A program made the translations under genes and the position numbers. DNA of 64,000 nucleotides from Prillingera fragicola (taxonomy: Eukaryota > Basidiomycota > Tremellomycetes > Trichosporonales > Trichosporonaceae), in NCBI GenBank assembly GCA_002335605.1, contig BEDY01000005.1:186001-250000 (forward strand), read 5' to 3'. The notes under the pieces were generated by a model that was not told where the DNA came from, did not search any database, and saw nothing but the letters and a program-made list of their open reading frames with translations. Positions 21,224 through 25,800 of this stretch are shown here, piece by piece. Positions within the stretch are counted from its first letter, which is position 1. Each line of letters starts with the position of its first letter.

Positions 21224-22529
21224 ATGGCCACAGCTCTCCAGGAAGAGCCAGGCAGCATGCGTACGTACAGCTCATATCTGCTGCTTCAATGCTAACCCCA
21301 TGCAGAGGCAATGGCCCATGCGTTCGTCATGATTGTCGTGTCTGAAATTGGTGAGCCATGTTCCACGCGCGTCAGCTGCGGCAGACCACTAGCACCCAAT
21401 GCTGGCACTGCCATGTCCATCCGCGGCCTCGGCGGCAGAGATCAAAGAGTGTAGACTGACAACATGTAGGCGACAAGACCTTTCTCATTGCTGCAATCAT
21501 GGCAACACGACACTCGCGCATCACCGTGTTCGCTGGTGCCTTTGCCTCGCTCGTGGTCATGTCAGTATTGAGCGCGGCGCTCGGAAAGATTATCCTAGGT
21601 CTCATTCCAAAAGTACGTGCACACAGATAATACTGACATGGGCGAGAGACTGTGCATCGCTCGCCGCGTTGGGCAACCCGAGCTGACATTCCAGCTTTAC
21701 ACCTTGTACGCCGCAGCCCTGCTGTTCCTCGTCTTTGGCATCAAGATGCTGCAGGAGGCTCTCGCAATGCCGGCGTCGCATATGGCCGACGAGATGCGCG
21801 AAGTTGAGGAAGAGCTCGAGGAGGACAACAGCCTGCACGACCCATCCAACCGCCCGGGATCCATGCCGCTCGAGGCGCTCGAGGAGGGACGCGTCGCCCG
21901 CTCCAGACCGCTCGAGAATACTCTTTCTGGCGCCGCGCGCAGCCGAGACGCATCCCCAGCCCCGCAGGCTCCTCCTCGTACCCGTCGATCTCGCTCGTCG
22001 TCGCCGTCTGTGCCCCGCCGCATCGGGTTTGGCCGCGCGAGCATCTCGCTCGGCAATGGCCTCGGACCACTCAAGGAGAGCGACTTTGTGACGCGCATGA
22101 GCGACGCCGTCCGTGCCAGTCTGCAGGTGGCAACAAACCCCGTTTTCGCGCAGGCATTCATCCTCACTTTCCTCGGCGAGTGGGGCGACAGGTCACAAAT
22201 TGCGACCATTGCTTTGGCTGGAGCGCACGTAAGTTGCCCCCCGCTGTCGTATAACTGGAGCTCCCAGCTAACACGATAACAGAGCATCCCCGTCATTGCC
22301 TTTGGAACGATTATTGGCCACGCCCTGTGCACATTCATCGCTGTCGTCGGCGGACGGCTGCTGTCCACAAAACTCTCAGTCAAGCACAGTGCGTCCTGCT
22401 CACATGCGCGCGTCACTGACAAGCACAGTCTCCCTCCTTGGCGCCATTGCCTTCCTGATCTTTGCAGTCATGTACGCCTTTGAGGCGTATCACGAGCAAG
22501 TCTCACCGACCCCCATCGAGGTCATCTAG
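21224..22529 (+). CDS. GDT1: GDT1/TMEM165-family (UPF0016) Ca2+/Mn2+ transporter
   Basis: Golgi cation/proton exchanger that supplies Mn2+ for glycosylation and helps Ca2+ balance. Exons 21224-21260, 21306-21350, 21470-21612, 21695-22228, 22283-22388 and 22429-22529 give 321 residues. The two signature motifs are clear: EIGDKTF, rebuilt across an intron, and EWGDRSQIATIALAGAH. Each belongs to a three-helix repeat. The central loop between the repeats is long, acidic first (EVEEELEEDN) and then Arg/Ser/Pro-rich. A cleavable signal peptide, usual in many relatives, is not evident: the start MATALQEEPGS is short and acidic, so targeting may use the first membrane helix. Confidence 0.93.
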
Positions 22530-22989: not shown

Positions 22990-25800
22990 TTATTTACCAC
23001 GGCGCTGCTCGACTTTTTCCCAGCTGCTCTGCGCGCCATCCCACTCGTCGGCGTCGAGCACGCCAATGTCCCCTTGGGCGGGGAAGGCTGCGCCGATCTT
23101 GCGCAGGATGGGGAGGTGCGAGTTGTGCAGCAGCGAGCCGACAAAGGGGACGTAGAGCGGGAGTGTTGGCGGGTGCGAGTAGATTTCTGTAATGCGCAGA
23201 GCCCAGGGTGGGTAGCCCCACAGCTCGGGGGCGGGGCGGGGGAGGAGACCGCGCCAGAAGCCTGGAGGGGAGAGTTGGTGGATTATGGCCAGTTCCGGGT
23301 CCGAAGGGAGGTGCAGGACGTCCATGATCGCGCGGTCGAGAAGGTCCTGCTGGATCTCGTCGGGGGAGACGCCGTCCATGATATAGCCTTGGGTGACTTG
23401 GGCGATGGCGTCGGCGGCAGAGGGGGCGAGAAAGTGGACTTCGACGCGACGTTGGCCCGAGGTCGTAATGACGTTGACAGTGCTGGTGATAGTGTCGTTG
23501 CCCATGGCTGGGGGGATAATGTCGAGAGAGGTGCGTGGCGGAGTGGCGGGACGCGAGGAGGGAGGTGAGAGGGGGAGATCGAGAAAGCCCGCGGTGACAG
23601 CGCTGTGGTTGGTCATGCCGAGACCTTTTCCATCCCAGATGCTGATGGTCGTCACACCCCATTCAGCACTCCACTGAACGGCGCGGCGGACACTCTCCAC
23701 GTAGCGGTCAGCCACGACGCGCCTGGCTCCGTTGCCGGGAACCAGGATTAGGGCGAGGTGCTGCGGTGCAGGTTTGGTGAGCTCAACGGGACTTGAAGGC
23801 TGGGCCTGGACCACACGGAGGACAATTGATGATAGCGTGAAGATGATGTGCAAGAGCAGGAGGAAGGGAAAGAAGAAGATGCGTAACAGTGACGCCGGCA
23901 CCCCAAAAATCTTTGACCACATCGATGGAGGCCTTTTCTGGCCTAGCTCGCTCTTAGGCCTGTGCTTGCCGCCGTGCTTGTGTTTGTGATCCGACGACTT
24001 CTTGCGGCTGTGACGCTTTCCGGCCGATCGGCCCATGGATCCCTTGGGTGAGGTGATGACAAACGTCGCCCCATCCGCCGGCTGCTCAATTTCAGTGATC
24101 AGCCTCTGTAGTGTCGCAGAGTGGCTCTTTTCAGGTGCCGTAGAAAAGGCGGCGGCATATCCACGGATCATCTTGACAATGTCGGTCCACTCGGTCATCT
24201 TACCAGAGCCAGCATCGCCGCACGCAAGAAGACCGGCACCCTGGGGACCCAGAATGTGGTATCCCAAGACCTCACGCGCGAAGGCGAGGTGGCGGGCTGT
24301 GTGCGCGTGCTCGTACATGTTGGTGTTCATGGCCGGGCAGAGCACCACTGGCGTAGTGGGTGCCAGAGCGCGGAGCAGTGACAATGGGAGATTGTCGCAC
24401 AGTCCGGCGGCAATCTTGCTCAGCATGTCCGCTGATGTCGGTGCAATGACAACAAGGTCCGCCCAGCGTCGCAACTCAATGTGCAGAATGGGGTCACCAA
24501 TCTTCTTCCAGTCGGACCACTCGTCCTCGTCCGTCCATACAGAGACCCCAGGGTACTTTTTCTCAAGTAAATCCTTGTCAAAGAAGTGCGTGGCCGCCTT
24601 CGTCGCCACTACCTGGACGAGGACCTGGCGGTCCTTACTGAGCTCATCGACAATGTTGGGGATCTTGATACTGGCGACTGATCCTGTCGCAATCACTACC
24701 ACGCGTAGCTTTCCGTCTGACAGTGCTGGCCGGTGGTCTGCTGCAGCAAATGGAACACGGCCACGAGGGATGCGCGGGGTGAGGTCCTTGCCAACTGGTG
24801 CGCTGGGAGCTTCACCGTTGGGTTCAGCGATGAGACTTGATGACGGTGCCGCCATTGTCGTTGGGGTTGGTGTAGGAGGGGTTGATGCTGCAGCGATCGC
24901 TGCCGCACGCTCAATGTTGATGGCCTCGCCCACAGCGTACATCTCCCGCCTTGCCTTGGTACGAGGGCTCTCGGGCTGCTCTCCCTTTGCCAAGGGCATG
25001 GTGTCGATCGCCGGCTTGGCAGCTGCATGTCCAGCAGTGGAGATTGTTGGGCTGAAAACAGTACTCTGCTGCACAGACGCAGGCTTCGCTTTTGGTGTCC
25101 CATGTGGCAACATGCCCAGGCGCTCGAGGTCCTTCTCGTCCACAAAGTGTGCGCCACAGCTCACACACTGCCGGCGTCCGTCCCGGGTTCCATCTGGGCG
25201 ACGCGGGTTGCCGACCAAAGGCACGCCCTCGCACTCGGGATTGGGACAGCTGTCACCAAGGAGTGAATAGCCCTTGAGCATGAGGTCACCAATGGCGTCG
25301 CTGACCTCGTCTGCCTTGCGGCGACGGCTGGGCGTCATGGGTGACGTAGCCGAGCGAGGACTGTGGACGGGGGGAGTGGATGGGTGAGCCGAGCTGCCGG
25401 CATGCTCGTGAATGGACGAGGCGGCATCCTCGTATTCAGCTGTCATGTACGACGACAACGACGTTGCCGAGGCGGAGCTGGGGGCCACAGGCTCACGTTC
25501 GGATGCAGTGCGGCCTTGAGGGCCGCCGTCGCAGAGAGCGCAGAACTGAATCGGGTCTCGGCCTGCACGCTCAGCCAAGTAAGCCGGTTCCCTCATGAGA
25601 GGAGTACTGTTGCACCGATCGCAGTGTCGGTCAGTGAGCGTCCAGCCCTTGAGCATGTAGTCGCCCAGCTGTGGGAGTCAGCAAGATGAATCAGCAGATG
25701 GGTGGGTGAGACTGCAGGGCAATGTTCGTATCGGCGCTCGAAGACATCGCTGCTAACAGAGACTCACAATGGGTGCCGACCTGTCCAGTTGAGAGGACAT
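22990..25800 (-). CDS. Three-part fusion: p27-type zinc ribbons + Hal3/PPCDC flavoprotein + Nus1-like cis-prenyltransferase subunit
   Basis: Exons 25768-25800 and 22990-25668 give 903 residues with no internal stop. (1) Two zinc ribbons of the Sjoegren autoantigen p27 type: MLKGWTL with Cys 27/30/54/57, and MLKGYSL with Cys 152/157/179/182. (2) Residues ~330-520 are a Hal3-type phosphopantothenoylcysteine decarboxylase (coenzyme A synthesis). It has the ATGSVAS flavin loop, catalytic His407 in HIELRRWAD, Asn459 in PAMNTNM and Cys494 in LLACGDAGSGKM, so one chain carries all active-site residues. (3) A basic Lys/His-rich linker, a membrane segment (~603-630), then a Nus1/NgBR-like region (RYVESVRRAVQWSAEWGV, ISIWDGKG) ending in RRGK. 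This matches the C-terminal RxG motif of the dolichol cis-prenyltransferase partner. An own start for part 3 (Met at 24036) cannot be excluded. Joining CoA and dolichol enzymes in one chain is unexpected. Confidence 0.85.

Follow-up and report, generated by a model that had tools for sequence, protein, structure and literature searches.

The basidiomycete Prillingera fragicola (Trichosporonaceae) carries a gene that joins, in one predicted 903-residue protein, two p27-type zinc ribbons, a 4'-phosphopantothenoylcysteine decarboxylase (PPCDC) domain of coenzyme A (CoA) synthesis, a hydrophobic membrane segment and a C-terminal domain of the Nus1 type, the pseudo-cis-prenyltransferase (pseudo-cis-PT) partner in dolichol synthesis. 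The gene lies on the minus strand of contig BEDY01000005.1 (assembly GCA_002335605.1; C5 below), in the window analysed here, i.e. the whole 64,000-nt stretch from position 186,001 to 250,000 of that contig (window offset 186000). We consider it likely that this is a genuine three-gene fusion producing one bifunctional, membrane-bound polypeptide, which would hold a step of CoA synthesis at the membrane that produces dolichol and storage lipid. CoA feeds the mevalonate pathway and hence the synthesis of dolichol, the lipid carrier of the sugars that are attached to proteins.

We confirmed in the window a minus-strand, ATG-started open reading frame (ORF) of 888 codons (25656..22990). An earlier reading of this DNA, made from the sequence alone, had described a single uninterrupted frame of 903 residues; that count holds, but the coding sequence is split by a 99-nt intron into a short first exon of 11 codons and exon 2, which by itself is open across 892 codons. 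The N-terminus reads MSSQLDRSAPI-LGDYMLKGW, against MSSRLEATSAI-LGEYMLKGW in the relatives P0002 and P0003. Residue numbers below refer to the 903-residue protein, whereas 'ORF' numbers count the 888 residues from Met16. The features of the locus, in window coordinates, are as follows.

25768..25800, minus strand: exon 1, residues 1-11 (MSSQLDRSAPI), N-terminus conserved in P0002 and P0003
25669..25767, minus strand: intron of 99 nt (GTGAGT...CCACAG), splice inferred from the sequence and the relatives' models
22990..25668, minus strand: exon 2, residues 12-903 and stop codon
25528..25671, minus strand: p27 zinc ribbon 1 (Cys27, 30, 54, 57), PF06677 at C5:211528-211671
25153..25293, minus strand: p27 zinc ribbon 2 (Cys152, 157, 179, 182), PF06677 at C5:211153-211293
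24166..24705, minus strand: PPCDC (flavoprotein) domain, PF02441 at C5:210166-210705; 6eoa_A, E 3.9e-77
24481..24483, minus strand: catalytic His407 (HIELRRW), read from the sequence
24325..24327, minus strand: catalytic Asn459 (PAMN), read from the sequence
24220..24222, minus strand: catalytic Cys494 (ACGD), read from the sequence
23932..24075, minus strand: disordered basic linker from PPCDC to the membrane helix, predicted local distance difference test score (pLDDT) <50 at ORF residues 528-575
23803..23922, minus strand: hydrophobic membrane helix (ORF 579-618) with an invariant Pro (ORF residue 597), hydropathy peak 2.35
22993..23784, minus strand: Nus1/NgBR-type pseudo-cis-PT domain, by homology, profile and structure-model evidence
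22993..23004, minus strand: C-terminal RRGK (RxG motif), read from the sequence, with the role of RxG as given in PMC7573591

The PPCDC part was matched by PF02441 over ORF residues 318-497 (E 7.8e-31; 107.3 bits against a cut-off of 22.7), and His407, Asn459 and Cys494 stand at exactly the positions previously claimed for them. All three are invariant in the 12 rows of alignment A1, which takes 12 of 17 sequences (the window and 16 relatives, with P0012-P0016 left out as partial or lacking Nus1). The best solved relative, PDB 6eoa, aligns over ORF residues 298-503, followed by Arabidopsis HAL3 and by 1qzu, which is presumably human. We take 6eoa to be Cryptococcus neoformans Hal3; unlike the fusion, its 325-residue chain has neither p27 nor Nus1 parts. 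At the N-terminus, PF06677 matched twice (65.8 bits against a cut-off of 24.1), with the match of ribbon 1 running one codon beyond the exon into the intron. These two stretches, together with exactly eight cysteines in residues 1-200, which fall into the two sets listed, bear out the proposed pair of p27-type ribbons.

The Nus1 part is not seen by Pfam, either in the fusion or in the solo Nus1 proteins tested, so a check by Pfam alone would wrongly reject it. A profile search against the PDB found NUS1 at E 2.4e-6, and single-sequence phmmer placed NUS1 on top at a non-significant E of 0.58. The C-terminus has the pseudo-cis-PT fold and the G[YF]PxWxLR-type motif in common with Tremellomycete solo Nus1, yeast Nus1 (6jcn) and human NgBR (6w2l, 6z1n), and the chain does end, as had been proposed, in RRGK. 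This C-terminal RxG is shared by the fusion and the Tremellomycete and human forms; yeast Nus1 itself lacks it, and the motif is not universal (PMC7573591). No catalytic DGN/DGQ was found in residues 641-903, and PF01255 was listed for 0 of the 12 rows at E-values up to 10. A DUF1513 match at E 0.027 fell below its own cut-off and was ignored.

Ahead of the Nus1 domain lies the hydrophobic segment proper (ORF residues 582-618), with a strongly basic flank on its N-terminal side. Its Pro does not vary in any of the 12 rows of A1 or the 15 rows of A2, an alignment of the window and 14 of 23 matches. The same segment with an invariant Pro is found in 14 solo Nus1 proteins of Kwoniella, Cryptococcus and Naematelia (P0018-P0022, P0024-P0031, P0035). 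In these genera Nus1 is a separate protein; the Tremellales forms, unlike the fusion, have 339-375 residues and start near the membrane segment.

The fusion is conserved. A whole-protein search returned 16 relatives, seven of which cover 100% of the query at 45-50% identity. P0001-P0007 run full length to QRRGK, and eleven chains (P0001-P0011) carry the PPCDC end together with the Nus1 membrane segment; P0008, P0009 and P0011 break off early within the Nus1 domain, probably because of an intron, P0012 and P0013 end at an apparent intron in PPCDC, and P0014-P0016 are without the Nus1 part. In a pattern scan of 66 chains (65 fetched plus the window; 20 of the 66 form alignment A3), the PPCDC end is joined to the Nus1 segment in 18 and p27 to PPCDC in 13, with the membrane segment of P0028 missed and P0032 and P0038 left unclassified by the scan. 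The PPCDC-Nus1 join occurs in five named species, Vanrija albida, V. humicola, Cutaneotrichosporon cavernicola, C. spelunceum and C. oleaginosum, all Trichosporonaceae, among which V. albida, C. cavernicola and C. spelunceum have all three parts in one model; the named relatives are annotated just as hypothetical, uncharacterized or flavoprotein-domain proteins. The PPCDC and Nus1 parts therefore do match one protein in related species within this family, as the sequence-only reading had asked to be checked, and the same join in relatives rules out, for practical purposes, its worry that a sequencing error had joined two genes. Its further argument, that the linker has no stop codon and no room for a promoter, is weak taken alone: the linker is indeed open, but so were 305 of 2000 dinucleotide shuffles of its 85 codons. 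It is the conservation across many records, and not the open linker, that shows the fusion to be real.

Phylogeny agrees with the domain assignment and a real fusion, as do sequence and fold. In an unrooted tree of 24 rows (10 of the 18 fused chains and 14 solo proteins), a branch with 100/100 support separates the fused Nus1 domains from the solo proteins. This is compatible with a single origin but does not prove one, because the tree is unrooted and the solo Naematelia row sits on a long branch; the fusion was probably fixed once, in the Trichosporonaceae lineage. For the p27 part, chains without PPCDC were found in Kwoniella, Naematelia, Saitozyma, Dioszegia and Cryptotrichosporon argae (27 matches, 220-700 residues by design), and the solo p27 proteins of Tremellales (P0039, P0053, P0061) and of C. 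argae (P0064) have the same N-terminus and both zinc ribbons as the fusion. As C. argae belongs to the Tetragoniomycetaceae, in the same order as the Trichosporonaceae, this suggests that the p27 fusion arose within Trichosporonales after that split. A C-terminal HTEA[MIV][RK]D motif, a property of many solo Tremellales p27 proteins and not of the fusion, occurs in 14 of the 26 p27 chains that lack PPCDC (some of these chains are partial) and in none of the 13 p27-PPCDC chains, among them that of the window. By this comparison, the p27 part of the fusion is probably truncated.

We searched the genome (20.2 Mb, 17 contigs) for other copies of each part. A solo Nus1 query matched the fusion at E 2.2e-39 and elsewhere in the genome reached just E 0.116, in a search of this one genome made exon by exon in six frames with the best candidates alone scored. 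PF06677 gave no further genome match above its cut-off, and PF01255 found one Rer2-type gene, on contig C13, reading MDGNRRFA. PF02441 gave one further match, on contig C6 (G000:C6:285282-286671; L002:1006-2395), where six inferred exons encode 363 aa closest to 6eoa (E 3.6e-64). In this paralogue the catalytic His is replaced by Ser, PAMN reads GSMN (Asn kept) and the Cys is missing. The fusion is thus the sole Nus1, the sole catalytically complete PPCDC and the sole p27 zinc-ribbon protein that these genome searches found. The C6 paralogue may serve the fused PPCDC as a regulator or non-catalytic partner, and the pair recalls the Hal3/Cab3 division of labour in yeast.

In the arrangement we favour, the PPCDC domain would decarboxylate 4'-phosphopantothenoylcysteine on the cytosolic face, most likely as a trimer, as most eukaryotic PPCDCs are homotrimers (PMC6168597). 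A flexible basic linker would tie it to Nus1's own hydrophobic helix, seated in the endoplasmic reticulum (ER) or lipid-droplet membrane, where the Nus1 domain would pair with the separate Rer2-type catalytic subunit encoded on C13 and the free C-terminal RRGK would complete the active site of Rer2. The linker (about 85 residues, 516-600; 20% K/R, 7% D/E), being basic and predicted to be mostly disordered, is long enough for each domain to assemble with its own partners. Step 3 of CoA synthesis, perhaps with the rest of the CoA-synthesising complex for which Cab3 is the scaffold in yeast (PMC8494682), would in this way be held where dolichol and storage lipid are made, much as the ER tethering put forward in the sequence-only reading. 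Lipid droplets are a reported location of yeast Nus1, Rer2 and Cab5, and also of Cab4, for which the data were not shown (PMC4076087). In a fly study, raised CoA synthesis enhanced mevalonate-isoprenoid activity (PMC13276073), which is context and not evidence for the fusion.

Several points weigh against this arrangement; neither the topology problem nor the lack of a second Nus1 in the genome figured in the sequence-only reading. If the hydrophobic segment were a simple single-pass helix, the membrane would separate PPCDC from the Nus1 domain and one of the two would be lumenal; such a topology misfits the fusion because two cytosolic enzymes would flank the segment and Nus1 must meet Rer2. 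In both AlphaFold2 models the hydrophobic stretch is one continuous helix, which speaks against a hairpin, and the full-length model is weak (mean pLDDT 64.4; predicted template modelling score, pTM, 0.36). The yeast droplet proteome, as presented in PMC4076087, is without Cab2-4 and hence without PPCDC (Cab3). The scope of the separate-Nus1 search counts on the same side, and no solo or fused Nus1 or PPCDC turned up in Cryptotrichosporon, so that the point of fusion is not fixed.

The topology problem would disappear with a re-entrant or half-membrane segment. No N-terminal signal peptide was seen by eye in the fusion protein. Directly before the shared membrane segment, P0002, P0003, P0010, P0017, P0033, P0034, P0036 and P0037 have an extra hydrophobic stretch; the three named chains among them are Cutaneotrichosporon, and no such stretch is seen in the window, P0001 (Vanrija albida) or P0004-P0007. 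To judge from sequence, this second stretch could bring both ends of the Cutaneotrichosporon forms to one side of the membrane. Among lipid-droplet proteins, monotopic hairpins have been described that have a proline at the centre and positive charges on the flanks (PMC12687448). The segment may form such a hairpin, with the invariant Pro, the basic flank and the extra Cutaneotrichosporon stretch speaking for it and the single AlphaFold2 helix against. More tentatively, we entertain an older arrangement in fungi generally, in which a PPCDC-scaffolded CoA complex docks on Rer2-Nus1 at the ER or lipid-droplet surface and the Trichosporonaceae made the contact permanent. Were this true, the Nus1 hydrophobic segment would be monotopic, kinked at the invariant Pro with both ends cytosolic, and would bear on the dual topology reported for human NgBR, for whose C-terminus two alternative topologies are reviewed (PMC7348171).

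The fusion might instead be neutral: one protein whose enzymes work as if apart, with a membrane location of no metabolic use, kept since reversal is hard after loss of the separate copies. We hold this to be rather unlikely. It would agree with the poorly conserved linkers, with the absence of Cab3 from the yeast droplet proteome, and with the finding that p27 and Nus1 lie on contigs of different length in 4 of the 4 species listing both (Kwoniella newhampshirensis, K. shandongensis, K. shivajii and Naematelia encephala); they are therefore not neighbours there, which points to parts joined by rearrangement and not to an old cluster in those species. Yet relatives at about 50% identity still carry the join, the searches of this genome showed no further copy of any part except the dead PPCDC, and in yeast members of both pathways come together at lipid droplets (PMC4076087). 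It is less probable still that the locus yields two proteins, with internal initiation, alternative polyadenylation or linker proteolysis freeing PPCDC from any tether. The basic, disordered, long linker would be easily cut, cleavage would also remove the topology problem, and the window linker region holds three Met codons. The start near 24036 (Met556) that had been feared is however not conserved: in P0001 no Met of the linker comes to within 97 residues of the His conserved in the membrane segment, and the single linker Met of P0004-P0007 lies inside that segment. A split by internal Met was rejected for want of a conserved start for a separate Nus1. Moreover, the NCBI-named P0001-P0003 are single full-length models, and, at the level of the protein models, the join lies on one chain in 18 of 18 chains with both motifs.

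Two further explanations touch the identity of the gene itself. In Saccharomycotina, Hal3/PPCDC proteins have a second role as inhibitors of Ppz1 (PMC9604783), and with a second PPCDC-like gene on C6 the fused domain might be a Hal3-type phosphatase regulator while the C6 paralogue makes CoA; we find this very improbable. It is the fused domain that keeps His407, Asn459 and Cys494, and the C6 paralogue that is without His and Cys. Judged by the marks of a Ppz1 inhibitor in that source, an N-terminal BBxxxVTF-type motif and an acidic C-tail, the fusion lacks a motif of the BBxxxVTF/VSF type as well as any acidic stretch beyond residue 500; the tested Schizosaccharomyces pombe, C. neoformans and Ustilago maydis proteins inhibit Ppz poorly or not (PMC9604783). 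An assembly or gene-model artefact merging adjacent genes deserves practically no credence. The early ends of P0008, P0009 and P0011 could be read that way, but the same join recurs in five named species and further records, the fused forms are one group in the tree, and the locus is contiguous on a 1.79-Mb contig.

PPCDC has been joined to other enzymes before. Molero et al. are said to have described in 2013 the S. pombe Hal3 as a PPCDC-thymidylate synthase fusion, which, like the present gene, combines a PPCDC/Hal3 domain with an enzyme from another pathway; to our knowledge, that protein is without a membrane segment, Nus1 domain or p27 ribbons. Bacterial CoaBC is another PPCDC fusion, with PPC synthetase as partner. 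These cases support regarding the present gene as a new domain combination within known metabolic gene fusions involving PPCDC, not as a new kind of system. Among the fetched chains, P0015 (1317 aa) joins a VPS9 domain to PPCDC and is either another PPCDC fusion or a gene-model merger.

A 2022 review of fungal Hal3/Cab3, which also notes two functional PPCDCs in C. neoformans, records that the proteins of a few Trichosporonaceae are extended by 9 to 480 residues (PMC9604783); by term search, the words Nus1, prenyl, dolichol, zinc and p27 are absent from its text. Among open-licence PMC full texts, none pairs 'phosphopantothenoylcysteine decarboxylase' with 'cis-prenyltransferase' or 'Nus1' with 'Trichosporon', and none of the four holding PPCDC and 'dolichol' is on such a fusion, judged by title. 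The literature on fusions and Trichosporonales likewise has none on PPCDC-Nus1 by title among the matches listed; subscription papers are mostly outside this search, and a report elsewhere is possible.

The gene would place two essential pathways on one polypeptide, in a family that includes oleaginous yeasts, Cutaneotrichosporon oleaginosum among them. Gene fusions are natural hints of a physical or metabolic link, here of CoA supply with polyprenol synthesis, and loss of this gene should hit both pathways. It may also serve as a natural topology reporter for Nus1, with an enzyme expected to be cytosolic on the N-terminal side of the segment and a C-terminal side that must meet cytosolic Rer2. 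Given the vague annotation of the relatives, dolichol synthesis may seem incomplete in automatic reconstructions of these genomes.

Two other features of the window adjoin the gene. A 411-codon antisense ORF (24035-25270, plus strand) runs over the PPCDC and p27 parts and is taken as chance, probably reflecting codon use. Convergent with the fusion gene, at 21617-22279 on the plus strand, lies an exon of a GDT1-type cation/proton antiporter (PF01169, E 4.7e-9).
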